Positions 1 through 38,437 of a stretch of DNA of 64,000 nucleotides are shown one piece after another. Location: assembly GCA_010015805.1 (NCBI GenBank), contig ML978121.1:3844001-3908000 (forward strand), given 5' to 3'. The notes below the pieces were generated by a model that was given only the letters and a program-made list of their open reading frames with translations, was not told the origin of the DNA and did not search any database. The DNA comes from Rhizodiscina lignyota. Lineage: Eukaryota; Ascomycota; Dothideomycetes; Aulographales; Rhizodiscinaceae. Within the stretch, counting starts at the first letter, position 1. Each line of letters opens with the position of its first letter. The position numbers and the translations under genes were made by a program.

Positions 1-510
1 AAGACCAAGAGCGCCGTATCAATCAATGGAAAGAACAATCGCCCTACCGTTGCTGCATCAGCAGAGAACGGATACTATTTGGCTAGCGTATCTGAAGAGG
101 TCACACCAGATGCAGATGCCGAGGTGAACAATGGGTATATTATGGCTTACTTTAAAATGTACGCACCGCTGACCGTCTTCCAGCGAGACTGTGATCGACG
201 CCGTCGCCTCCAAAGAATCATGGGACAAGCTTTTCGCAAAGCGCGCTGCGCCGTTGTGCGAGGGCCATAGCGAACCGTGCATCACTCTGCTCAGTAAGAA
301 GAAAGGCTTCAATTGTGGGAGGAGCTTCTGGATATGCCCCCGGTAAGTGCGCTAATCCCGTGTCTTTGGATTGTGGTCGCCATGTGACGGAACAAGACTG
401 ACGTGTCGTTGACGTGCAGGCCTCTTGGTCCGTCTGGGAATAAGGAAGTTGGAACGCAATGGCGGTGTCGGACGTTCATATGGTCAAGTGACTGGAACGG
501 GAATGGATGA
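1..510 (+). CDS. APN2: DNA-(apurinic/apyrimidinic site) lyase Apn2, 3' end only
   Basis: This is the C-terminal part of the AP endonuclease/DNA lyase of base-excision repair; the catalytic domain lies left of the window. Exons are <1..134, 184..342 and 420..510, with introns 135-183 (GTATAT donor, CTGAC branch) and 343-419 (GTAAGT donor). The joined frame ends in a GRF zinc finger: CEGHSEPC, then FNCGRSFWICPRPLGP across the second intron, then WRCRTFIW and a stop at 508-510. Cys and His spacing and the GR(S/R)F core match zf-GRF, which is typical of the Apn2 C-terminus. APN2 is the classical left flank of the MAT1 locus in many filamentous ascomycetes, and here it lies about 5 kb from the MAT1-2-1 3' end. 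Identification rests on the GRF finger plus this context. Confidence 0.88.
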
Positions 511-1495
511 GCGGCTACTTGCTGCTATGAGGGAAGAGTTTGATGCGGACAATGTGCGGTATCATGATCTGGAATGACGGTGATGCCAAGTATCCAAAGC
601 CCGCGGCTTGGTGGGAATTAAAGAACAGGTGTCAACGTCTAGTCAAGATCAAAGAGCCAATAAGTCCCAAACGACATTTTGCTGTATAAATGCGGCATCA
701 ATTGCCTCCTAAATCTCGATATCAGCTACTAGTATTACTGAGGTTACCATCATCTAGCACAACAAAGGGTAACTACTGCTCGAAAAGCTGTAATCACGGA
801 AGTCTTCTGGCGGCCTCTCTCGACAGGATTGACTCCAATTATACCGGCTCGAGAATAAAGTATTTGGCCGCCGGGCAAACTCTCACACCCAAACTCGAAC
901 AGTTCTTATTCTTCGAGGTAGGCGATAGCACATCGAGAAGCTCACTTCTGAATTCCCTGGAGTACATATAACAGTACGAGTCTGTTGAAAAACTTGTACA
1001 CTATATTAGACACAGAGGCTATACATCGAAGCCTCTGGGGTAAGCTTTAATAGCCAAAGCCGAGTTGCTCTTTCTCCTTAAGTAAAGATACCATCGCTAG
1101 ATCTTCGGTTCTACGTTCTTTGGAGTGTGTACTTCTTGGTTGTTCAGTATCTTGCAGGCTATGATTAACTGGTTTGTCGCCATCGAAGCAGCCCGCACGC
1201 AGGAATGGTGGATTGAATTCATCACCATACCGACGACAAAAAAATAAGATTGCGATACCGGAGATTGGCAACAATAGGTACTTAGCTAGCGTGTTTTTCG
1301 CGTTTTCTTCTTCACCATAACAACAACAACATTGCCACGGCCGCGTGAGGAACACTTCACTAGCGCGTTGGCCACGAGCCCACAAATTCTCTTCCCGAAA
1401 ATAAACGAAGCACCACCTCTCATCTTCTTTCTTCTTCCTACACTTCTTCCACCTCACGCCTTGTTATCCACTGCTCATCGCCAAGGCTCTCTCTA
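511..1495. other. gene-free spacer between APN2 and the next gene
   Basis: No convincing gene is seen. The open frames here have no coding character and no splice-supported extension. It holds the 3' flank of APN2 and the promoter of the gene starting at 1496. A small inverted repeat, CAGAGGCT/AGCCTCTG with a 9-nt loop, lies at 1013-1037. Confidence 0.6.
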
Positions 1496-2706
1496 ATGGC
1501 TGAGAACTCTGCCGGCCATCCTCCTGCGGGAGGTTTTGCCTCTGATGACCCACTTTGTTCGTGTTCCCTTTGTTTGGTTTTCTGTTTTCAGCTTGCTAAT
1601 GCTCATTTCAGCTGTGGCGAACATGTCGGACGAGGACTATGAGAGACTGTACTTGAGTCAGTTCATTCCGGCAGAGTGGCTGCGCGAATTCCGCGAGCGT
1701 TACGATGGCACACCAGCCGCCGACGCGCCATCGAACCGGAAGAATGAATCGAGCGCCAATACGAAGTCAGACATTGGAAAATCATCCGACGTTGACGCGC
1801 AACCGAGCGATCAGGAGGATTCGAACGTCGATGTGGATCACAACATGGTTTTGGACTCGCAGGAGTTCCAAAATTTGCTACTCCCGTTCGGGGCTTACCT
1901 TGAACGTCGGCTCCGACCAAGTCAACGCGTCTCGAAAGAGGCAGCGGTAAAGATGGACCATGAATTCAGTCTCATGCTCCGTACGGTGATAGGTGCTGCC
2001 AAGGAGCTCCTCAAGTATCACGATGAGGATCCACTATCGATCGAGATCCTCGGGGAAACATGCTCCTACATTGAGAACTTAGTCACCTTGCGCGAGGAGC
2101 GCTCCGATGCGGTGTGGAAGTCTCGTCTTGAGGTTGCGGACATTCGCTGGGCCAGAGAGGTCGAGAGGCTAGAAGGCATACATGGCAAGGGCAAGATCAA
2201 CTTCGACAAGTTGAGGGACAACCCATTGAGTGGCTTCCACGATGAAGGCGCTCCACTCGTGTTGCTTCCGGAAGGTCTCCGCCACCCGCGTTACATCGTC
2301 ACGGCGATACCCCCAGGTGAAATCTCGATGCTCGAGAAGCAGTTCCAGGAAGAGGAGAGCATGGCAACTGCTCTTGGCATCCCGTACCAGAGGCCCTTCA
2401 ACTTCCGGCAGGCCGGCTTGCAGAAAGTCGTTGTGAATGGCGAGGCACGTCAACACATCATGGTACGTAGCGCTTGCACAACATACTCGACGTCATACTA
2501 ACATGATTCAGATGCGTATGCCCAGCGCGCATGTGCCCAATCAAGACTTTGAGGTGCCCGGAGGACCGCACAGCAACTTTGACCACCTCAATAGGCTGCT
2601 TGCGCGTCTCGAGGGACAAGTACCCAGGCAAGGCCCCATGCCCGTGGATATCCCGGTCATGCTAGTCGTGAGGCGCAATCCAGATTATGTGCCCACAGAT
2701 GAATAG
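1496..2706 (+). CDS. conserved-looking hypothetical protein between APN2 and MAT
   Basis: I do not recognise the family. The proposed model is join(1496..1556, 1612..2462, 2512..2706), giving 368 residues. Intron 2 (2463-2511) has a GTACGT donor, an ACTAAC branch and CAG. Intron 1 (1557-1611) uses a weaker GTTCGT donor but has a GCTAAT branch site and ends TTTCAG, and it keeps frame from an ATG at 1496. Translation could instead start at the ATG at 1623 (MSDEDYERLY). The product is soluble and acidic: an N-terminal segment with IPAEWLREF, a Ser/Asp-rich linker (about 55-100), a helical middle, and a C-terminal part with LPEGLRHPRYIV and PVDIPVMLVVRRNPDY. No signal peptide or membrane segment remains in this model. 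Its position next to MAT is notable but gives no function. Confidence 0.65.
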
Positions 2707-3107
2707 TTGGTTGCCCTAATGAGGCGGATGGGGTCAAAGGGTGTACAAGATAGATGAAAGCAAGAGTATAGCAATGAAATAATTAAGGTGCAGAACAGTA
2801 TAACTTCAACCAATGCACGCCTGTGACTATGAGCGCTATTTTAACTCACGCATATTCAACAAGACGCAACAGAAGGTGAACAAGGAAATGAGAACCTATA
2901 AAGGAGCTCCAGGGCGTAACTAAACAATGCTTCTAACAACTGAGTACTCCAGGCAACGAGTAAATAAACATAAAATTTACGCGCCACGGCTGGGTCCGGT
3001 TCATAGGTTATACGTGTCAAAGTAGACATAGCTAAAGGTTGAGTACAAAGGTAGAACGAACAAATGAGCTCCAGAGCACAATTTAATGGTCTCTACTCTC
3101 TCCGTAT

Positions 3108-3535
3108 TATAGCAGAACAGTTAGCTAGTACGAGGGTGACGAAATAGTTGAGTCCTATAAAGCTTGAACGTATTCAGTAAAAACGAGGTTTCCTCTTCAA
3201 CGCTAGCAGGAGCATCTCTGAAAGGTCGATAAGTTATATATTAGAGTTCGCCTATCTAAAATGAAGAGGTTTTATAGCAGAGTAGTTAGCTAGTACGAGA
3301 GTGACAAAATAGTTGAGTCCTATGAAGCTTGAACGTATTCAGCAAGAGCGAGGTTTCCTCGTTAACGCTAGCGAGAGTATCTCTAAAAAGTATTCAGTAA
3401 AAGTAAGGTTTCCTCTTCAATGCTAGCGAGAGCATTTCTAAAAGGTATTTAGTAAAAGCGAGGATTCCTCTTTAACGCTAGCGAGAGCATCTCTAAAAGG
3501 TCGATAAATTATATACTAGAGTTCGTCTCTCTAAA
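3108..3535. repeat. nested tandem repeat, 165-bp units with 55-bp subunits
   Basis: A unit beginning TATAGCAGA at 3108 recurs at 3273 (period 165 bp) with only a few differences, including a shared GTTAGCTAGTACGAG block and TTGAGTCCTAT. Inside the second unit a 55-bp subunit (TATTCAGTAAAAGCGAGG through GCGAGAGCATCTCTAAAA) is present three times, starting near 3335, 3391 and 3445. The end block after 3500 includes CGAGGATATACATCCTCG near 3574. A diverged relative of the subunit and end block lies at 43.3 kb, so this is a dispersed family and not only a local duplication. No open reading frame or terminal inverted repeat was found. Confidence 0.75.
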
Positions 3536-4390
3536 ACATATAGCTTCAACGTATATAACTTATATTAACTATCGAGGATATACATCCTCGTAGTTCTATA
3601 TATTGTAGCCACGACTCAATTATTTTGTCACCTACTTAGCCAGATAGCTACGATTAAACTAAACTTAGTAATTACTACCCGTCTTTACTAAATAACTTGC
3701 GTCGTACGTAGGCTTACTGTTGCAGTGTTGCACTATTCGGATTCGCGCACAGAACGGAATATCGTGTCTTGTGATATAGTATGTACGTGTTCAAACTCAG
3801 ATATACAGCTTAATATAGACCAATCAGAAGGCAGGAAAAGCGCACAAACAGTAATCTGAAACGTATATTCAAGAATTGAAAGGCATAAGGCTAAGCTAGC
3901 TGTGAAACCATGAATTGGTACGCGATCAATCGCGATGATTTTTCGCGATATCAATAACTAATCAATAACTAAAATAGAATTAGGAAAGCGGCTATTATCT
4001 AACCTAAGGACAATTCCTTCCAGCTAGCTTATTGCCTCTTTAGGCCGCCCACCCCATCGAAATCTTCGACTTTTTGGTAATGCGCCACTTTGCACTTCTA
4101 TAATAACCGCCTACGGCCGAAATTCGAAAAAAGCGCTCCATTTGATTTCAAGTCAAGCCTTCCTACGCGTATTTACTTACGTTTTATAACTATATAGGCG
4201 CCGGTTGTAACGGTCTACTCTTTTGAAATTCCTTCGTGCGCCCGGCGTCACGTGATTGCCGTATATCTTCGAATTTTAAATATTACCTCCTCTCTCTCTA
4301 CAACAACTCACTCGCTTCAACTACAGCTATCTTAGTAGGTTAATCTCAACGTATATATCACGCGTATAAGCTTACTTTTAACGTAATAAG

Positions 4391-4806
4391 TAGCGAGCAC
4401 CGAATAGCGAGCCAGCGAGCACCGAAACAGCAGGCACTCAAGCCAGCCAGCGAGCGCCCGAGCGAGATAGGCACCGAAACAAGCCAGCCAGCAAGCGCCC
4501 GAGCGAGCCACAGGCACCCAAGCCAGCCAGCGAGCACCGAAATAGCAGGCACTCAAGCCAGCCAGCGAGCGCCCGAGCGAGCCACAGGCACCGAAACAGC
4601 AGACACCCAAGCCAGCCAGCGTGCGCCCGAGCGAGCCACAAGCACTCAAGCCAGCCAGCGAGCACCGAAGCCAGCCAGCGAGCCCATAAGCACCGAAGTA
4701 GTAGGCACTTAAGCTGGCCAGTAAGCACCGAATAAGTAGGTATAGAGGCACTGAATGAACAGGTGCAGAAGCACCGAATGCGCAGGCAAAGGCACCGAAT
4801 AAGCAT
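4391..4806. repeat. minisatellite of GCGAGC/CAGCCAGC units
   Basis: About 400 bp of imperfect, interleaved short units built from AAGCCAGCCAGCGAGC, GCCCGAGCGAGCCACAGG and CACCGAAACAGCAGGCA. Units are most alike at 4391-4680 and decay to the right, where only GCACCGAATAAGC-type units remain. All three minus-strand frames stay largely open and would encode Leu-Ala-Gly-Trp-rich repeats, which is expected from unit lengths and lack of stops and is not evidence of a gene. The array is much richer in GC than the AT-rich DNA around it. Confidence 0.8.
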
Positions 4807-5727
4807 ACACTTAATGAATTCAATATCCCGTTCACGTCGCGTGCCTTATAACTAATCATATCGCGTGACCATAATCACGTGACATTACCCTCTTCCCCTA
4901 ACACGAAGCAACGCGTGTGGGCATAGGGACTGCAACAGAAATAAAGATCGAAAAATCAATGACTAAGCGCTGAACCCTAACCCTGATCACGTGTTAAGCC
5001 CAAACAGGAAATAGTTCCCGAGCTTCCGCTTGAAATGCGCGCACAGAAATTCCCACACAGCTCAAGGCTTGAATGCTAAGGAGATATTGAAACCTTCATA
5101 AAAGCACCCTTTTTTAATGAATTACAAGGCATCTTGCATATTATTCAGGCAGAAACCCCCACGTGGGCCAAAAATGGCCAATGAAAATCTCTCTCTTTCA
5201 CAGAAATTCCACCACAGCACAAGAACCCAAACTTCAAGCTCCGAAGCAAGCAGCTTTCCCGTGTCAGTAGTAGTGATAGTCCAGAGGTGAGATACATTAA
5301 ACCTAATTTCGGCATGCCTCGCCAACAAGTCGATGGCCTCACAGCTTCAAAAAGTTGGGGAAGAACATTGGTGGATAATCATCCTTTTATTTTTCTATAT
5401 ACCTAGAAGAGAGCTTCGTGTATTCCGTAACCCGCACAACCCGCACAATTCTGCAAAAGAAGTAAGGAAATAGAAGGTTTGCCGTGATGCGCCAAAGGGA
5501 AAATCCAGAAAATCCAGAACAATCCTCCATCATTATTGTCTCTTCCACAATCTGTGAGAACCTCCATCGAGAACAAAGCCAACAATCCAATACCCAAAAT
5601 ATGAAAAGGAAAAGAAGGCCGGCATCAGTGTCGACATAATCATGAATTTTTGTCGAATGTAGACAGGGCCGGTGTCGTAGGAGCAAAGAGGCTTGACCGA
5701 ATCAATTCAGCTCAGGGTAAGATCGGT

Positions 5728-7083
5728 TTAGTTGAAGATACGGGGGTCGATGAAATAGTCCTCTGGGCCGCCGTCGAGATTCCCTCCCATGAAATCGCCC
5801 TCCAAGACAGACAACTCATCGACGAGCTGGTCGTGGCGGTCAGTCTCCATATCGAACGCTTGTGCGACGGAGAGAGGATTCGCTGGGTCGAAGTTGGTAA
5901 GGCCAGGGGAGTGCACATATGGTAGGAATCCATCGGTTCCCATTGCATAAACAGTCTGAGCATCATTTTGGGATGCTTGTAGAGCACTGTTCGCAGTCGT
6001 CGCAAATGAGTCAAATCCGCCGATGAGCCGGTTCTCAAAGGAAGCTGCGCCGACGGGATCGACATCCGCATTGATGTTGTTGCAAAGAGCATCAATCACC
6101 TCGTTCGAGCCATCGTATGGCATCATGGGGAATTCGAAACCGTTTCCGTCAGCTGTCGCGGGGCATGGTGGCGGAAGCCCTGCATGAACCATTTGGAGAA
6201 CTTGGGACCCGTAGACGTATCCAATGGGGTCGAGAATCTCAGCGGTATCAGTGGTTCCACCGTTCGAGGCTGCTGTGGCAAAAGCAGCTTTGCGCTTGGT
6301 CGCTCTTCTCTTCTTTTCTCCTGACTTCCTTGGCTGATAGTGGTAGCCTGGGTGGCGAGCTAGATGCTCGGTCTTCACTTCCATCGCCTTCGCTTTCCAG
6401 CTCTCCTTGACCGTCTCGCTCTCGTTTTGCCACTGACGTCCAAGGATAACAGCTAGAGTCTTGTCAGTCAAAGGTCTACTTAGAATATGGCCGAATACAC
6501 TTACAGATCTCGTTGTTATGCAGATGAGGGTTTGCTTTCTTCAGGTCCGGGTGATGCTTCTGGCGATACAGGATGAAGGCGTTTGGAGGGCGAGGGACCT
6601 TGGATTGGGCCTTCTCTGAAGCTCGAGACACTCCATTTGGAGGTGGAGACGCAGAAGAGGTGGAGGAAGTGGACTTGATGGCAACGATGCCGGCAAGTGC
6701 CAAACTGTTAAGGGATCGATCTTGGATGGCTTTAAGCCGAGACATCGGAATTCCAGCAGGAAGGAAGGGCTGAGGCGGAACGTAGGACGGAGGGATTGGA
6801 ACAGCTCTGCCCGGAGATATGGTTGCCCAGTGTTCCTTGTAGACGATCTCCAATGCAGAAATGCGCATGTGGCGGCTGCTAAAGTCAGTTGCAGCTCAGA
6901 ATTGGGATTAGAGAAAACATACGTGAAGTAGTCCTGAAGAACCGCAGCTCCATCATAGCCAACCAACTGTGTAGGAAAGGAGACTTGATTGCGGTCATTT
7001 GGCAGCTGTCTCATCAGAGCGCCGAACCAAAGGTTGTCAACAAGAGTTTGTTTTGCCGGGTTAAGAACGATGTTGGTCGCCAT
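5728..7083 (-). CDS. MAT1-2-1: mating-type HMG-box transcription factor MAT1-2-1
   Basis: Master regulator of mating identity in MAT1-2 strains; a nuclear DNA-binding protein. Model complement(join(5728..6452, 6505..6878, 6923..7083)), 419 residues, start at the ATG of MATNIVLNP. Intron 1 has a GTATGT donor and TTTAG acceptor; intron 2 has GTAAGT and CTCTAG. The HMG box (about 149-215) reads PRPPNAFILYRQKHHPDLK, then HLHNNEIS|VILGRQW, then WKAKAMEVKTEHLARHPGYHY and YQPRKSGEKKRR. Intron 2 splits the serine codon of NEIS|VILG, the usual conserved intron position of MAT1-2-1 HMG boxes. The N-terminal 60 residues resemble the pre-box region of Dothideomycete MAT1-2-1. The gene diverges from the gene at 7476 over a 392-bp spacer. 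Identification is firm; a single idiomorph is present, so a heterothallic MAT1-2 strain is the simplest reading, but homothallism cannot be excluded from one window. Confidence 0.96.
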
Positions 7084-7475
7084 TTTGGAGTGTACTGTTG
7101 AAGATGGAAGCGTAAAGTGAAGAAAAGCTTGGAGAGTTGCTGTTGCAAGCTGGTGAGTTTCGAAGAGTTGGAAGATAGGAAGGATGGAGGACGAGGAGGT
7201 AATCGAGTTACTCCATGGCCTGCAAATGTGGTGGCTGGAATGGCCCCAGTGGTGTGTTGAGAAAACCCAGATTGTTTTCGAGGTGAAATGGTGATTGTTG
7301 TGAGTGCTCCATAAGTTGCGACGTCGGCGCGACAACCAACCTCCTCCACCTTAGTTAGACTTTGCATCACAACACAACACTTTGCCCGAACAAAACTTCA
7401 AATAGTGCACAAGACTATCTTCATCACTTAAAACCTCTTCAAATCCACCATCTGAATTCTTGCATCCCAGCTACA
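7084..7475. promoter_or_regulatory. divergent promoter between MAT1-2-1 and the homeodomain-like gene
   Basis: The 392 bp between the two start codons must carry both promoters. It includes CT-rich and CA-rich leaders near each start (TTCATCACTTAAAACC and ATCCCAGCTACAATG on the right). The shared spacer suggests co-expression of the two MAT genes; no specific factor site could be assigned. Confidence 0.5.
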
Positions 7476-8452
7476 ATGCCATCAGAGGGTGAGCCCAGCT
7501 TTATGGCAGAACTGCGAGAGTTGAGGCGCCTTTTCGAACAACACAGCCGCCCTGATGACGCTGAGAGCTCTTCAGGTGAACCGCCGCCGTCGAATGACGC
7601 CCGCATGGGACGCAAGGTCACGATCCCTTATGACGTTAGAATGGATGCGGAGGCCCTGAAATTGCTCGACAAGTCGTACGCTGAGGAGCAGCGCGTAATC
7701 AATCAGCTGTCAGCCGGGTTCGACGACCCTGTTCTCGGTCCTCTCCACGCTGGTGTCTTCAAGAACTACGGAATCGATGACGCGAGGCCGTTGAGGATGA
7801 TGGCCATCAAGGAGGCGATTGGAAGGTGAGCCAACGAAACAGATATACCTTCTGGCACAAAGAAAATTGACTGACTTACCAACGCAGCGAAACTGATATC
7901 GCGGCAAAACAAGCCGGCTTGATCGCCGAGGGGCCCTACGTCAAGAACGTTCCCGTGGATGCTCTCAACCTTCTCGAACAGTTCTTTGAGGACAACCCAA
8001 ACCCCAACCCCGCTGAAGTGGCGTTGCTTTCGCGAGGAACGAGAATGACGAGAGCAGATGTTAACGCGTGGTGTAAGTTTCCCCGTCAGAATCTTAATAG
8101 AGGAGTTTTGTGCAAGACTAACATGATACATGTTCCAGTCGTGTGGAAGAAGAACTCAATCCTCCACGTGGAGATGGTGGAGAAGATGGCGCTGGCAGAT
8201 ATGAAGAAGTCCTACGAGAATATCAAGACCGCCATGGCTCTAATCGAGGCTAAGAAGGAGGCGAAGGCACAGGAGGAGAAGAGGGCGAAGAATGCAAAGA
8301 AGTACGCCAGAAAGAAGGCCAAAAAGCAGGCGGAAAAGCAGGCCAAGCGCGAGGCCGAAGGAGGCGAGACCGAAGGAGGCGAGACCGAAGGAGGAGAGGC
8401 TACAGAAAGCACTGGCGAAGAACAGGATGAGGAGAAAGACATGTTGTCCTGA
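7476..8452 (+). CDS. second MAT1-2 locus gene; homeodomain-like helix-turn-helix protein with Lys-rich coiled tail
   Basis: Model join(7476..7825, 7888..8072, 8139..8452), 282 residues; both introns have good donors (GTGAGC, GTAAGT) and CAG acceptors. Residues about 138-184 read like a homeodomain helix 1 to helix 3: LNLLEQFFEDNPNPNPAE, then TRMTRADVNAWFVWKKN. The pattern L..FF.DNP.P...E...L......V..WF...K is that of TALE-type homeodomains, but the position of the invariant Asn of helix 3 (WFxN) is Trp181, so canonical base contact would be lost. Splicing of intron 2 itself creates the Trp-Phe pair. The C-terminus (about 195-265) is Lys/Ala/Glu-rich, likely coiled coil, followed by three EGGET repeats. 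It could correspond to the accessory MAT1-2 genes (such as MAT1-2-12) described for Mycosphaerellaceae/Teratosphaeriaceae; I cannot verify this. Gene reality is well supported; the homeodomain assignment is inference. Confidence 0.85.
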
Positions 8453-10624: not shown

Positions 10625-13600
10625 TTACGAACTCACACCGCTCACGTCTCGCGTCTGCCGCGCTGGTGGCGGCACATCCTCGTCTTCTGGCACAGTGTTA
10701 GACTCCCATGCCGCCCACGCAACGTCGTCTTCGTCCTCCGCACCGTGTTCCTGACCTTGCTCCTGATCCTGATCGGCGACATGTGCATGTTCATCCTTGG
10801 CTACCGCAGACGGGGTATGAGAGATCTCCTCCATGTCTCCAGCGTCTTGCTCCTCTACAGCGCCCTTGTTCTGCAGAGGTATATTTGGCGCGGCGTCTTC
10901 GTCGACATTCATCTCCATGGGACCAAAGGTCTCTTCCTCGCCCTCGTCTCCGTGTGCGCGGTCAAAGTTTTGTGCTACCTCGTGTTCGTGCGCATCGTCT
11001 GCCATATCGGGGATAGGTTCACTGGATGTGTGCTTGTCATGATCAGCATCAGCATCAGGAGCAGCGTCGACGTCAGGTATTTCGTCTGTATTCTCCTCCC
11101 ACGCGCCGTAGTCGTCATCTCCTTCATCGTCAGGGTATTCTTGAGCGGTAGGTATACGTTCGGCGTGAGGATGGTCTTGACTAGCGAGCTCATGTTCAGC
11201 GTCAGGATAAGAGGGTGTTTCGACGAGTTGCTGAGACACAGGCTTCTCCTCCTCAGCAGGTATCGCGCGCGGCGGCAACGGCGGTCTCGGCACAGGCCGT
11301 TTCTTAATCGACAACGAGAGCCTCTTCCCCAACTCTGGGCTCTGCGCCGCCGCGCCATTGACAGCAACCTCGCCTTCTCGTACATCATCTCCTTTCTCAA
11401 AACTTGGAACAGGCCTTCTCGGCAATGGCGGCGGAGATTTCGACTTCGTGTCAAGTGCCGACACATCCTTCCTCTCCTCACCTTCGTCACCCATCGTCCC
11501 CTCCCCACCATCCTGCCGATTCCCCAAATCCACCGACCCACCGCCTGCACCAGAACCCACAGGCTTCCTCCTCATTCCCATTCCCATATTCATCAACACG
11601 TTCGCACTAGCGCTCACTGCTCCCGCCCACGTCCCGCTACGCTGCGGCCCTGGAAGCGGGGTCCCCGGCGGCGGGAGTGGTTGTCCGCGGCCCATAGGTT
11701 GCAGCGGCGAGCCCGGTCCATGCGGTATAGAAGAGGTAGACGGTGTACGGGCGTGGATGTCCTTTGGTGGTGGGAGGGAGGACGGGAATTGGGGGGAGAG
11801 CGCGGAGGGGGAGAGCCCAGAGGACGGGGAAGGAGCGCGAACTTGTGTGGGACTGAAAGCGCGGAGGGAATTCGATGATGATCGGGAGCTGAGGGTTGGA
11901 ATTTTGGAGGGTGTGGGAGCGCGCGCAGGAGTGGAGGTGGAGCCTTGGGAGGAGAGTGAGTGCGTGGAGACTCGCCGTGGTATCATTGAGGGTGATGCTG
12001 ATCGCGCGAGTTCTGGCCCGCTGGGGGGAGTAGGGCCTTCTAGCGAATTTTGAGATGTCCTGTGCTCTAGACGTCCCGGTGATGGCTCTCGTGGTCCTTG
12101 CTCGACGACTTGTTTGGGAGTCGCCTCGGCTGTCTCTGGCTTTGCTGCAAGAGTAGCGGACCTGGCATTTTGTCTCGCGGCCATATAATTCAGACCCCAT
12201 TTCTTTGCCGCAGCTGCCGCAGTCCCCAGACTCTGGCGTTTGTTCGCCGTAGCATTCGCCAGCATCTTCGCTGTCGTTGTTGAGGATCGTTTGGCCGCGT
12301 TCGGACTAGACTCGTTTTCAAAGGCGCTGATAATACTTGAGCCATCGCTCGTCGCAAAGTCTGTGCTATTTGTGCGCGAATGGGGATGTGACGATACCGG
12401 ATATGACGACGTTGTGCTCTGTCGCTTCGAAGATAACGAGCTGCTTGGCCTCGCAGGCAGTTCTGGAGGGTTGGTAGGTATAATCTGACTCTCCTCTGCA
12501 GTTCCGTCCGCAGCTACGGGCTTTACTGAAATTTCGCTGAGCGCAGCAGCAGCTTTTGCCGCAGCCTCGCTGCCCGCAGCACTGACGTTTGATTTTGTAC
12601 TTCCGATACTCCCGCTCTTGCTCCTCGCCATGGCAGCCGCAGCTTGAGCCATGAACTCTGCTGCCTCTGAGGATCGCTCGAGTGACCCGACAGGACTATC
12701 TCTAGGAGAAGCTGCAAGCGAAATGGATCGACTGGGAGTCTGACTTTGCGATTGTTGTGCTGCAGTTATGTCTTTCATTGCGGCAGCTGCGGCGCCTGGC
12801 GCTGGAAGTGGTGACCCTCGACCAGACGAGCCGTTGTCGACGGTCGCATGGTCACTTGTCAGCATTGGAGAGGCTGCGCTGGGACTAGCGAAGGAGTTTG
12901 AGCGGAGAGCTTTCGGTTTATTCGTCGCTGAGGTTCCGTTGATATTTGCAGACGATGGTCGGGAGACGTTGGCATCTTTGGAAGTATCAAGCCCGCTAGA
13001 TATGCCAATGGCATCAACGGATGTTGTCGATCGTGAAGGTGGACTACGTGCAGTGAGACCTGATGGCGCAGTATTCGCAAGGAAAGGTGTGCTCGCTGAT
13101 TTGCCCCGTTCGGGGAGCATTGGAGGTATTGAGATTTCGGAGGCCCTATCATCCATCAAAGTCGGTTTCTCCTCTGTCATCTCCTCTGTGCTTTCCGCTT
13201 TGGAATCCGCCATGGATGGTGGAGGAGCCATGTGGGGGCTTGGTTTCACATCATCTGCCCACAGGCCGCCACGGAACCTCTGAAGGAACGTCTGATGGAA
13301 GGGCACATCGTCCCAATTAGGGGAAACAAGAGTCTCGCTCAAGACTTCGCGGATCCGGTTTTCTATGGCGCGCAGGATGAAGCCATATGTGATCTGCCTA
13401 TTGGAGACAAGAGGCTCAATGGAAAGCTCCATCTTTGGCGGTGTCTCGAAGGAGAACCAGATTCGATTGCTTGGCGGTGGTTTGATGCGAAACAAGACAT
13501 GACCTTCCAGCTTCTTGAGGATGACGGCAAGGAGCAGGCTGACCTCTCGTGCTTTGATGCGCGAACCAAGATCAATGCGTGCGATCGCTGCTATCTCGAG

Positions 13601-14775
13601 TCGGAATTTCCCATTGTACTTCACATCCACCTCAACGGTCACGTCTCCGTCCATAGTGAGCTCTCGAAGTTTGGGGTGAGTAATCATTGGCGCTGCGTCA
13701 CCCATGTGGATCTGGCCCACGGAAAGGCTATCCAAAAACGCTGGTTTCTGGACACGGGAGATTTTCTTGTTGATCTTTGAGCGGATGAAGTCTTCAATCT
13801 GATTGGTCTTGTAGAGGGACAGGAAGACGCGGCCGAGTAGGGCATTGAACCAACGAGTCTGCAGGTTCTCTTCGGAAGCATGGAGTTGCTGGACGAGTTT
13901 GATGAGATGGGCCTGTTCGAATTGCAGTGGGGTCGGGGGATTCTCTGGGTTGTCTGGTCTTCGCTCTTGATTCTGGAGGAGGGCATGATAGAAGTCCTCT
14001 TTGTTAGAGCAATTCTCAGAGAATAGATAGAATGGTCGTGACCCTTGCGAGACTTCTCCATACACACGCTTGCTCGTCAATCGTATGCAGTTTCGCTTCA
14101 CGAATAACTCTCCCTCTGGTATGACCTCGCCACCCCCGTACAGATCCACTCCATGGTGCGCTAGAGCAATGACGTGTCGAACTTCGAGCTGTTCTGCGTC
14201 GTCGTAGAGCATGAGATGTCCCAATCTAACAATAACATCAGTCACTATCCCCCATCTCAACGTCAGGTCTTGCATAGCATGGCATACCTGAGTACGACAT
14301 AGAACACGTTGTTCGCCCTCTTGACAGGCCTCCCTACAGTTTTTCCACCCTCTATACTTGGAGAACTCGTCTTCTTCCTGTCAAACAGACTCCTATACAT
14401 GCTCTGATACACACTCGGACTCTCCGTCGCCACCACCGACCCGGCAGGTGTCGTGCGCTCTGGCGGTTTCCCATTGACACCACCAGGCACATATTCCCTA
14501 CACACAGCAAAGTATCCCGCTGCAACATCAGGCTCGTGAACGCGCGGTTTCAGCTCTTCCGGCAAATCGGTCGGCACATCCGCCAGATCATCATCTTGCT
14601 TCGTGGAACCATCCTCGCTTAACGAGCCGTTCACGTCTCCGTTCAAGCTTGTGGACGGCGTGGACCGGTCAGGAAAGGTAAGGTGCGCGTGGAGGAGGAC
14701 GGCACATATTACGAGGGGGATGAAGGTGATGCCGCCGAGCAGGTAGGTGATGAGGAAGCCGGTGAAAGTCACCAT
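10625..14775 (-). CDS. PH-SMP domain protein, Nvj2/TEX2-like lipid-transfer protein at ER contact sites
   Basis: Model complement(join(10625..14225, 14288..14775)), 1,362 residues; the intron (GTATGC donor, TTAG acceptor) joins NNVFYVVL to RLGHLMLYDD. An N-terminal membrane segment (about 5-30, FLITYLLGGITFIPLVI) anchors it in the ER. A PH-like domain follows (about 60-250), then an SMP domain (about 286-490) with TRWFNALLGRVFLSL, MGDAAPMITHPKL and VEVDVKYNGKF. SMP domains carry glycerolipids between membranes; Nvj2 acts at nucleus-vacuole and ER-Golgi contacts. The remaining 850 residues are low complexity, Ser/Pro/Ala-rich, ending in an acidic region. A long antisense open frame (10490-11878) is a shadow of this biased sequence. 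As a pleckstrin-homology gene next to MAT it matches the right flank of MAT1 known from related fungi. Confidence 0.92.
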
Positions 14776-15376: not shown

Positions 15377-16189
15377 CTACTCCTCTTCCTCTTCTTCACC
15401 GCCCTCCTCCTTCTTCTCAGCTGCCTTGGCCTTCTTTCTCCTGACACGGCCAGGACGCCCACCACCGAACGGAGAAGTAAGAGCGAAGTCAATATGCTTC
15501 TGGGAGTCGAGACGGACGATGAAGGACGGGACGTTGACGATTTGCTTGCCGACACTGTTGCCATTGAACATGATTAGCTGCCGTCTCCAGCATCATTCAA
15601 ATTTGGAATGTGTGATGCACTTACCGAATATGCCTCTGCTTGATCAAGACACGAGCATGATGGATGCTCTTCGCAAGGCCAAGCTTGTACACGCACGTCT
15701 GCAGACGGCGCTCCAAGAAGTCCTCGATCTTCAGCGCGAGCACGTAATCGAGTTTCATGCGGGATTCGTCGAGCACACCGACGCGCACGAGACGGCGAAT
15801 AAGGGCGTTGCCTTCGAACAGGCGCTTGGGGTCTTTCTCATCGAGGGTGAGAAGTTGACTGCAATGGCTGGAGTCAGAACCACCATTTGAAACGACTCTG
15901 ACTGTTGAAAACCGTTCGAGGGATACATACCGGGCAGCACGTCGAATTTTCGACAGCGTCAGCTGCACGCGCCACACCTCGCGCTTGTTGCGCAGGCCAT
16001 ACTCGCCGACAGTCTTCAATTCAGAGTCCCTACATTCCAAAATCCTCTGGTCAATTACATTGTTCAACGACTTGAAGTAGGGAACAAGCCGCTACTCAGT
16101 GGCCGAGAACAGAGTTGTACGTACAGACGTGCAGACTCGAACGGGCGCCGAGGGACCTTGTAGGTCTTGCTGTAGCTCCTGGGAGCCAT
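15377..16189 (-). CDS. rps9: 40S ribosomal protein S9 (uS4)
   Basis: Structural and 18S rRNA-binding protein of the small subunit, involved in decoding accuracy. Model complement(join(15377..15554, 15625..15858, 15931..16029, 16125..16189)), 191 residues, the family's usual length. Joined exons give [23 protein letters not shown], then [55 protein letters not shown], the S4 RNA-binding segment [35 protein letters not shown] and [14 protein letters not shown], ending in a Glu tail. All three introns preserve frame and have fungal donors. Head to head with rpl21 across 267 bp, which suggests co-regulation of the two ribosomal-protein genes. Confidence 0.98.
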
Positions 16190-34416: not shown

Positions 34417-37400
34417 ATGCCTCTCATGCCCAACGACTTTGTTGGGCTCAATACCTCTCTTTATTCTACGCTTCACGGAAAGCAAATCGAGCACCTGGAG
34501 CGAAGTATATGGCTCCGACGTGTTGGTCGATTCAACGAAGCGCTCGACATCTTCCGAGAGAATTTAGACGAAGTGAAGGAAGTACCCGTGGTTTTGATAG
34601 AGCAAGCAAACATCTACTTGGAATGCTACTCTTATGGCAAGCTATACAGGTTTCTCGACAAACCCTTGCGGGATCGCGAAGGCGACGAAGAGACCCTCGC
34701 GCGACCGGAATGGCGTCTGATGGCCTTGACGCGAGCCATGGTGGTGGTTCGTCATAGAGGCACAATAGAACCTGCCATTGAAGAGCTTGAGAGAACGCAG
34801 AAGTGGTTGAAAGATTTTCCGGTCGATTCATACACTGACGTACATGTATACATCTCCTCTTGCAGACATATTCACCTCTCCTAATACTGACCACGTTCAG
34901 GTAAATTGCGTCTGGAGATACATTATAGCCTACCTCTTCGTCAAGCTCGGTGCAACGTACGAGTGTCCCGACGCCGAGTTAATTCCTAGGCCTGAATCTG
35001 TCTTTGCACCTTGGCAAGGTCTCACCGACCTCCGGAGCTCATTGCTCAAACGCGGAATGGTCAGACACGCGGCTGGCCTCTTCCGCGTCGAGATCAGTCG
35101 AACGCCTCTGATGGATCGCCTTCGGAAGTATGAAGAAATCATCCCTACTCTTAGTATGATCGAATCACCGCGTAGCCGTCATTTAGCAGAAGCAGACTTG
35201 AGGCTGCGACTTTGCGATGACCTGGCCATCATTCACGATTTGTCTGCTGCGCAAAACGAAGCTGTAAAATGCGAGCTGGCTCTCGACAGTCTGTGTTCTG
35301 ACCCGAACGTAGATTTGGGAGATGACCAGTCGCATCGTCTACATCTCCAACTTGTGCGCCTGGGCTTTATTTCCGATCCCATCGCCAAGTTCAACGCCGC
35401 AATCGAACTTCTAGAACCACTATCGGCACGATCTCATCCCAATCAAGGGAACTGTCTGTACCTGGCCACCGAAGTAGCGGCGATGATCGCACAGACAGGC
35501 TCGGAAGCCCACCTTGTCAAGTTCTACGAGCTCCATCGGAGGCTTGAGCACTTGAATGAGTACGTGTTTGAAGACCTTTGCGACCTGGTATCTTGTCAGA
35601 GTGGTCTCTTAAGTCTTACGGTGGATAATCGTGTCGATGCTCAGAAGTCTCTCGAGTGGATCCAAGGCTTCTTCTTGAAGTATCCACACTTCCAAGCACC
35701 AACGGTTATGGCCAACCTTTATTACAAATGCAGCATCCTGTTCAATACCGTTCGAGACGAGGGAAGATCAAAAGAAGCCCTTGACAGGTCCAGAGAGTGG
35801 GATAGACGCGCTGGCCAGGTCCAGAACATTCATCACCAGAATTATACCAACATCTTCGCCAATAGTGGTGGCTCAGCGGAGGACAGTGCTTACGATTCAG
35901 AGGACGATGTGTCCAACTTCTCCTTCTCAGAACGATGGATACACTGTCTGACAGATATTCCCCAAGGCACAATGATTGTCATGCACGCGATCATTGACTG
36001 GGCCTTTGATGACCTTGGAAAGGACCTGATAACGATAAACACGGTCACAGGTCTTTTTGGAATGGATGCAGAAGATTTGGAACAGATGCGCGAGCATGGT
36101 GCAAACAAGTATCGCGAAAAGCTCAAAAGCGTGGATGCTGGTGCCGTTTTTGAAGCAGTTTACCTACCTGGTGGCCGCCCTTCTCACGAACGATATGATG
36201 CGCTTTCATCATGGTTGCATAAACCTCCCAAAGGATCTCGAAACGACCGCTTGTTCGGGTTGTTGATGTTTCTGTATATCAGGAAGGGATGGCTGGAACA
36301 ACTTCAGTTGCGCGATGTGCACATCGAGGAAATTGACCGGACTCTAGAGCTGCAGTCCAACTTTCCACAAATGCTGAAAGCCTTCAGTTCGCCGTGGCGA
36401 TGGGCCTGGGTGGTTGAAAAGGCCTGGTGCTATTACTTGAAATTTTTAGCGACCGGTGACCTTGAAACTGGCTGGGATTTTGTCTTGAAGGCTAAATGCC
36501 TCGTCGAGGAAGCTGTTTCCGGCTTTCGTGAGACAAAACAGATCGGGCAGGTTGCTCTTGGTCAGCGACTCTCCGCTCAGATCTCACTTCTCTATATTCG
36601 CAAGCTTCAGCAACGAGACAGTGTTCAGGATGCTGGCGGAGCCCATGGGAGCGCAAACCTTTCGATCAACGAACAGATTCGACAGCTTCGCAGAGATGGA
36701 CTCGAAGCAGTCCTCGAGACAGATCGAATTTTCACGGAAATTGAACTCGAGGCATCCTGGCTGGACGGAGTAGAGGGCATTGAGGAGCGCAAGAAGGTGG
36801 CAAGGTTCCAAAACAGCCATACGACCGTCCAGGTTGCAGTTCAATTGCTCCTGTCTGCACCGGATGAGCGCAGTGATGAATCAAGGATGCTCGTCTGGGA
36901 GCTCGTTCAGAAGTTCAAGGCTCGGTCATTGGCAAGAACGATTGGGATGTTTCGTCCGAATCCGCCGGGTCTAGTCAACAAAATCCTCGCTTCTCCAGAC
37001 TGCGGTCCAGTCTATCAAGAGATGCTTGACCTACAAGCTCGCATCGATGCTGCCGAGGCGAAGGATAGGCTCCACTTGCGTCGAACACTGGATGCCCATA
37101 GGAAGAAAATGAAAGAGCACGACCTTTTGAGGCAGCTGATAAACCGTCGTGAAGGGACGCCATTCGACCTAAGTGAGCTTGACGGAATCCAGTCGCAAGC
37201 TGGCAAGCCTGTCGTCTTGGTAGACTGGTTTTTTGTCCCTCCGTACTTCAATGATCCTCCCAAGATGGGGGACGGTTTCATTATTCTTCTTACTGCACGG
37301 GCCCGGCAGACTCCCACTATCGATATCTTGGATACAGATCCCTCTGCAGCGGCCAAGTGGATAAAAGCTACCTTTACGGCTCAGAAAGATCTCGATCAAC

Positions 37401-38437
37401 CCATGCTTGGTCGACATTCTGCCAAGACCGACTTAAATCAATTGTGCGGCAGTCTCGTAACCCCTCTCGAGCGGAGAACAAGGGAGGGTGATGTGCTCGT
37501 GTTATGTCCGACTCACGAGCTGCACAGGTTGCCGATGCATGCTTTAGATGTGGATGAGGAGCCGCTCATTCGGCGGAATCCAGTGCTTTATATCCACTCT
37601 CACTCATTGCTAAGGTCTTGTCAATCCGCTGCGCTTTACGCAGCGGACGTACAGTCTCCTATGAATGCGCTGGTATTTTCCGGCATAGGACGTATACATG
37701 ATCGAAGCTATAGGGCTGGCCGAAAATCCGTAGTGGATGTTGCCGCTCGTTTGAATGCTGAGCCACTCATCGACGAAACTGCTACAAAACCCAGGTTCCT
37801 GGATAGTGTAACGCGCTCACGGGTCTTTCATCTTCACACCCACTGCTCATGGAATGCTAGCGACGCACTTGAACATAGTCTGGAGTTTCCAGTCCTCACA
37901 GATCCTCCACCTCAATCTCCAATACCAATACACGACACGACCGAACGTCCGAAACTTACTGCTCGGGAGATTTTCGATGTTCGTCTTCAACAAGGAGGCC
38001 ATGTCAATTTGATTGCTTGCTCGGCAGGTTCCATTGATAATCAAGCCGGTGATGAACCAATGGGCCTGGTCCCGGCAATACTTTATTCGGGAGCAAGCTC
38101 GACAGTTTCTACCCTTTGGCCGATTGAAGACGATGTCGGTGACAGATTTTCGAGGTCATTTTTTGATTCTTTTATCCGCCAGGCTAAAAAGAATGACCAA
38201 GGAGCTTTGCGCTCGATAAGAGAATTGGCTCAGGCTCTCCCCGAAATAGACAGGGAGTATAGACGAGGAGAAATCGAAAGAAGCGTACGGTGGATCGACA
38301 TTGCAGAGGCTGTACAACTCGCAGTCCTCTCACTGGACCCTCAACAGACGGAGCCATTGCTGTCTTGGGCTGGATTCATCCTTCACGGATTCTGGATGTT
38401 TCCAGTGACTGGAGATGAAAGTAAGGAACTGAAATGA
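34417..38437 (+). CDS. CHAT-domain (caspase-like) protease with helical TPR-like N-terminal region
   Basis: Model join(34417..34845, 34901..38437), 1,321 residues; the intron (GTATAC donor, CTGACC branch, TTCAG) is phase 0, joining YTDVH to VNCVWRYI. The long N-terminal region (about 1-950) is helical with TPR-like units such as HLERSIWLRRVGRFNEALDI. The C-terminus is a CHAT domain: VLVLCPTHELHRLPMHALDV, the histidine segment FHLHTHCSW (His at 1120, 1122 and 1124) and the cysteine segment NLIACSAGSIDNQAG with Cys1183, followed by GLVPAILYSGASSTVSTLWP, a hallmark of CHAT. The probable His/Cys dyad is intact. CHAT proteases are separase/caspase relatives; in fungi some are coupled to cell-death proteins in allorecognition, and in bacteria TPR-CHAT proteins act in defence. 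The substrate here is unknown. The 5' end is uncertain; no better upstream ATG exists in frame. Confidence 0.88.

Follow-up and report, generated by a model that had tools for sequence, protein, structure and literature searches.

The MAT1-2 locus and its divergent gene

We analyzed a stretch of 64,000 nucleotides of Rhizodiscina lignyota DNA (the window), which contains an HMG-type MAT1-2 locus, as a sequence-only reading of the same DNA had proposed. On the reverse strand, positions 5728–7083 encode a 418-aa protein with an HMG box (PF00505, E = 8.9e-22) and a start codon at 7083; we read this gene as MAT1-2-1. A second gene is transcribed divergently from it on the forward strand (7476–8452). 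Its spliced translation, codon bias, third-position GC, and intron signals define a product of 282 aa encoded by three exons (7476–7825, 7888–8072, and 8139–8452), with the start ATG at 7476–7478 and the stop codon at 8450–8452. The coordinates, frame, and residue numbers of the earlier reading (282 aa, LEQFF at 146, WFVWKKN at 178) were right. Both introns run from GT to AG and contain branch-like words (CTGAC or CTAAC). The GC content of third codon positions was 0.678, versus overall GC contents of 0.435 and 0.394 in the two introns, and the codon-bias score (0.035) was higher than in any of 2000 random synonymous versions (maximum 0.023).

The start codons of MAT1-2-1 and its divergent neighbor are separated by 392 bp, an upstream region common to both genes (7084–7475). 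The HMG-type word ATTGTT occurs there twice, at 7271 and 7294, versus 0.10 occurrences expected from mononucleotide shuffles. ATTGT, which is part of ATTGTT, was also found twice (0.46 expected). Eight words were tried in all, and the remaining six occurred 0, 0, 0, 0, 0, and 1 times. We set these words aside as evidence.

Beyond the divergent gene, a reverse-strand ORF (10625–14380) carries an MMM1/SMP domain (PF10296, 31.3 bits for a cut-off of 21.9), a family that we take to be the former DUF2404, together with a weak PH match (PF15413, PH_11, 26.9 bits, under its cut-off of 30). At 15621–16091 on the reverse strand lies an exon assigned to the ribosomal protein S4/S9 family (PF00163 and PF01479), which we read as part of a 40S S9 gene, and a ribosomal L21e gene was also detected by Pfam on this side of the locus. 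The gene order is MAT1-2-1, the divergent gene (hereafter, the homeodomain gene), the PH/SMP gene, and the ribosomal S9 gene. OML1 and APN2 were not found by Pfam in the selected window ORFs, which included two ORFs in positions 1–5000. NCBIfam gave two matches, both weak and irrelevant, and scans for tandem repeats and tRNAs revealed nothing relevant to the homeodomain question. Judging by its position, the gene is very probably an accessory (secondary) MAT gene of the MAT1-2 idiomorph, and it is likely the one known under several names in the Dothideomycetes. It could occur in MAT1-1 strains too.

The window has other features at a greater distance. Downstream of MAT1-2-1, an AT-richer region contains direct repeats (3104–3536), including a 55-bp tandem array (3335–3501) and a 123-bp pair whose copies are 87% alike. 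Imperfect tandem repeats with periods of 20, 23, and 35 bp lie at 4392–4805, on the far side of MAT1-2-1, and the 175-aa ORF that contains them is probably spurious. A long ORF of 1208 aa (34811–38434) carries a CHAT domain (PF12770, E = 1.5e-30).

A homeodomain in the product of the divergent gene

The region of interest spans residues about 131–190 (7928–8173, forward strand), is split by intron 2, and corresponds to homeodomain positions 1–60; positions are given here as the residue number minus 130. PF00046 (Homeodomain) matched residues 142–179 with 32.7 bits (curated cut-off 22.9, E = 6.7e-8), and exon 2 alone passed the same cut-off narrowly, with 23.7 bits. Scrambled copies of residues 118–216 (six shuffled, one reversed) never matched a homeodomain model at E ≤ 10 (0/7). 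For the whole protein, six Pfam families were listed at E ≤ 10, including PF00046 and Homeobox_KN (19.8 bits, under its cut-off of 24), which are presumably the only helix-turn-helix families among the six. Sequence comparison with the PDB returned 12 matches at E ≤ 10, the best being ZHX3 (E = 2.2e-4). All 12 are homeodomain proteins, either named as homeobox or taken by us to be homeodomain carriers.

The core of a homeodomain is formed by L16, F20, W48, and F49. All four residues are present here (L146, F150, W178, and F179), and positions 13, 16, 20, 34, 40, 45, 48, and 49 read L, L, F, L, M, V, W, and F. We also compared the domain with five homeodomains without allowing gaps. The Z scores were 8.4 for ZHX3, 8.3 for POU2F3, 7.2 for ZHX1, 5.4 for yeast a1, and 4.2 for an engrailed construct. 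The observed score was reached by none of 5000 shuffles for ZHX3, POU2F3, ZHX1, and a1, and by one of 5000 for engrailed. Because ZHX3, POU2F3, and ZHX1 had been picked by the same query, only the a1 and engrailed comparisons are independent. From its sequence, the gene product almost certainly carries a real homeodomain, in agreement with the family assignment of the sequence-only reading. Intron 2 (66 nt, 8073–8138, forward strand) interrupts the recognition helix right behind W48, within the codon for F49. It has no in-frame stop, so its retention would add 22 residues into that helix.

Homeodomain helices are found at about positions 10–22, 28–37, and 42–58. We predicted the structure of exon 2 (residues 118–178, ending at position 48) and obtained a model of low confidence (mean pLDDT 56.3, pTM 0.28) with helices at 23–35, 41–49, and 55–60 of the segment, corresponding to homeodomain positions 10–22, 28–36, and 42–47. 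A Foldseek search of the PDB with this model gave 100 matches, none at E ≤ 0.001. Among the 50 matches listed, E values were at least 1.1 and rmsd values 7.3–9.1 Å; 48 of these 50 name what we take to be a known homeodomain carrier, and two titles name none. The assignment of the fold rests mainly on the profile match, with which the exon-2 model simply agrees.

The sequence-only reading had described the spacing of the domain as TALE-like. This proved incorrect: the three-residue extension between helices 1 and 2 is missing, and this stretch aligns to ZHX and POU domains without a gap. In TGIF1, a TALE protein and the subject of three of the 12 PDB matches, the aligned part of the chain exceeds that of the query by 3 to 4 residues. 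Thus, without the loop extension, the domain is not TALE; the score of Homeobox_KN below its cut-off also led us to reject a TALE homeodomain.

The N-terminal region (residues 1–116; 7476–7823, forward strand) has no Pfam family at E ≤ 10. A model of exon 1 predicted four helices with low confidence (pLDDT 58.3) and, taken as a rough control, had one Foldseek match, to a chromatin-assembly complex entry (E = 4.8). On the Pfam result and this lone match, exon 1 was rejected as a second known domain. In the C-terminal tail (8174–8449, forward strand), residues 191–216 have a net charge of 0, residues 217–252 are basic (+10), and residues 253–282 are acidic (−11). A 15-bp tandem repeat in the coding sequence (8349–8398) gives the acidic tail its GGETE repeats. 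Downstream of the homeodomain, there was no significant heptad periodicity (P 0.19–0.38 in five overlapping segments), and a dimerising leucine zipper is therefore not supported there.

The DNA face and possible modes of action

At the homeodomain positions that touch DNA (5, 25, 31, 50, 51, 53, and 55), the residues here are V, N, V, V, W, K, and S. Arg is missing from position 5, and the Asn of position 51 is replaced by Trp181, the substitution that the sequence-only reading had singled out. Its further suggestion that canonical DNA contact may be lost also appears likely, as positions 5, 25, 31, 50, and 51 all depart from the usual contact residues. The net charge of positions 1–60 is −2, versus +10 for the 57-aa domain of yeast a1. 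Over positions 15–53, the net charge is 0, exactly as in POU2F3, which keeps N51; charge alone is therefore weak evidence. Both aligned ZHX homeodomains carry E at position 51. Asn51 is thus replaced in these two domains too, and W51 does not exclude homeodomain membership.

Because the usual DNA-reading residues are mostly gone, the domain probably binds other proteins, and from its sequence we consider protein interaction the likelier mode of action than canonical DNA reading. There is precedent among ZHX proteins: PMC2893186 describes protein-protein contacts for ZHX2 HD2 and a homodimer in which the normal DNA site is disrupted. Taken together, these results suggest, with moderate confidence, that the gene is an accessory MAT1-2 gene whose product has a divergent homeodomain and acts as a nuclear interaction cofactor. 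The non-TALE homeodomain has kept its hydrophobic core and lost most of its DNA-contacting residues, and it would most likely serve as a nuclear module for protein interaction instead of reading DNA on its own. As a cofactor, the protein could bind MAT1-2-1 or some other partner of the homeodomain or HMG type, and the partner-bound cofactor would modulate transcription in sexual development.

Alternatively, the protein could be a sequence-specific DNA-binding homeodomain factor of altered specificity that would use K52, K53, W51, and the basic tail. The profile match covers the start of helix 3, a Lys is present at position 53, and the basic segment 217–252 (net +10) could confer non-specific DNA binding. 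The charge shared with the N51-bearing POU2F3 over positions 15–53 is consistent with such a factor, and so is the argument of the authors of PMC2893186 that ZHX1 HD4 possibly binds DNA via other residues. However, the loss of the usual contacts at five positions and the net charge of −2 over positions 1–60 argue against a DNA-binding factor, which we regard as rather unlikely.

The gene might also be a mating regulator in decay, with a homeodomain that is now a relic without a role. The contact at position 51 has been lost along with others, and secondary MAT genes can be dispensable, for instance MAT1-2-7 of Huntiella moniliformis (excerpt of PMC9602353). Yet the frame is intact over three exons with canonical intron ends, codon bias surpasses that of every random synonymous version, and PF00046 scores above its cut-off, which makes decay improbable.

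A further alternative concerns the origin of the gene and is compatible with the cofactor explanation. The gene may descend from an a1-like homeodomain gene already present before yeasts and filamentous ascomycetes diverged, and it may have stayed next to the HMG gene, an arrangement like that of yeast MATa. Like a1, its domain is non-TALE and shares the locus with an HMG gene in a parallel position, and 11 of 57 residues are identical in the ungapped a1 alignment (Z = 5.4). Against this, we saw no specific affinity to a1: the PDB search at E ≤ 10 did not return it among the 12 matches, and its Z score was below those of ZHX and POU (7.2–8.4, though those three were picked by the same query). 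In addition, intron 2 is placed elsewhere than the a1 intron. Descent from an a1-like gene is thus doubtful. Finally, the low model confidence and the lack of a structural match at E ≤ 0.001 would suit another three-helix helix-turn-helix, but such a fold is very improbable given that PF00046 passes its cut-off, that PF00046 and Homeobox_KN are presumably the sole helix-turn-helix families among the six listed from Pfam, and that homeodomain proteins account for all 12 sequence matches in the PDB.

Comparison with known mating-type and homeodomain systems

The closest solved sequence is that of vertebrate ZHX3, and the aligned ZHX domains resemble the domain described here in having lost N51. 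ZHX proteins differ in belonging to vertebrates, in combining two zinc fingers with five homeodomains, and in having no known link to mating. We also looked for relatives of the gene product in contig collections and found none in bacterial and archaeal contigs (0 from 32 pattern matches) or in viral contigs (0 from 6). Because these collections are bacterial, archaeal, and viral, the lack of an orthologue there says little.

In the Dothideomycetes, MAT1-2-9 of Phyllosticta, MAT1-2-12 of Teratosphaeria, and MAT1-2-5 of Botryosphaeriaceae are MAT1-2 accessory genes; we liken them to the homeodomain gene by position and description. For Phyllosticta, the genes listed in an excerpt of PMC6859488 are 40SS9, PH Domain, MAT1-1-1, MAT1-2-9, MAT1-2-1, OML1, and APN2. 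Three of these seven (S9, PH, and MAT1-2-1) have likely counterparts in the window, and the homeodomain gene stands where MAT1-2-9 does in this excerpted list, whose order need not be that of the map. From this synteny, the DNA would probably be assigned to a Dothideomycete. The MAT1-2 idiomorph of Teratosphaeria comprises MAT1-2-1 and MAT1-2-12 (excerpt of PMC7513301), and in most Botryosphaeriaceae the MAT1 genes adjoin a gene whose product carries PH and DUF2404 domains (excerpt of PMC8905617). A word search of PMC7513301, PMC6859488, PMC8905617, and PMC9318749 found no word starting with "homeo". In the open-licence literature, which covers few subscription papers, we found no homeodomain described for a MAT accessory gene of any Dothideomycete; this does not prove that none has been published.

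In filamentous fungi, one would not expect a homeodomain at this place, and the sequence-only reading had called it new or unrecognised among the accessory MAT genes. This claim is weakened by findings in lichens. A homeodomain leucine-zipper (pfam11569) has already been assigned by Pizarro et al. 2019 (PMC6414310) to genes classed as MAT1-2 auxiliary in Cetraria islandica, C. commixta, and Umbilicaria pustulata, and this precedent reduces the novelty. In the same paper, the MAT1-2 auxiliary gene of Xanthoria parietina clustered with MAT1-2-4 of Aspergillus. In Letharia, the gene is MAT1-2-14, for which the authors found homologues in Lecanoromycetes only (excerpt of PMC10512270). The lichen genes and the homeodomain gene share an accessory place beside MAT1-2-1 and, in the three named species, a homeodomain call. 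They differ in that the lichen genes sit between MAT1-2-1 and APN2 (excerpt of PMC6414310) and in that zipper heptads are not supported in the 282-aa protein. In addition, pfam11569 was not among the Pfam matches of this protein at E ≤ 10, in a Pfam copy that may lack the model.

Many secondary MAT proteins are said to be without recognisable domains, so that their functions are difficult to foresee (excerpt of PMC9602353), and homeodomain genes form one category in a map of fungal mating-type structures (excerpt of Martin et al. 2010, PMC2999568). A clear homeodomain gives one of these secondary proteins a biochemistry that can be tested. To our knowledge, homeodomain mating regulators are viewed as a feature of yeasts and basidiomycetes that filamentous ascomycetes lack. 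The homeodomain described here and the lichen report together question this exclusion.

Yeast MATa1 is a non-TALE homeodomain protein encoded at a mating-type locus, where many yeasts also hold an HMG gene, and in this it resembles the protein described here. It differs in keeping N51, R53, and a basic domain. The MAT1-2 accessory genes of Pezizomycotina, in Dothideomycetes and lichens alike, might be fast-evolving descendants of one ancestral non-TALE counterpart of a1 that lay beside the HMG gene. In that case, its homeodomain would still serve to bind a protein partner, perhaps a factor of the opposite mating type. We consider such common descent improbable, as it cannot be likelier than the descent from an a1-like gene that it contains. 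If it were true, the supposed loss of the homeodomain from the MAT loci of filamentous ascomycetes would never have happened.
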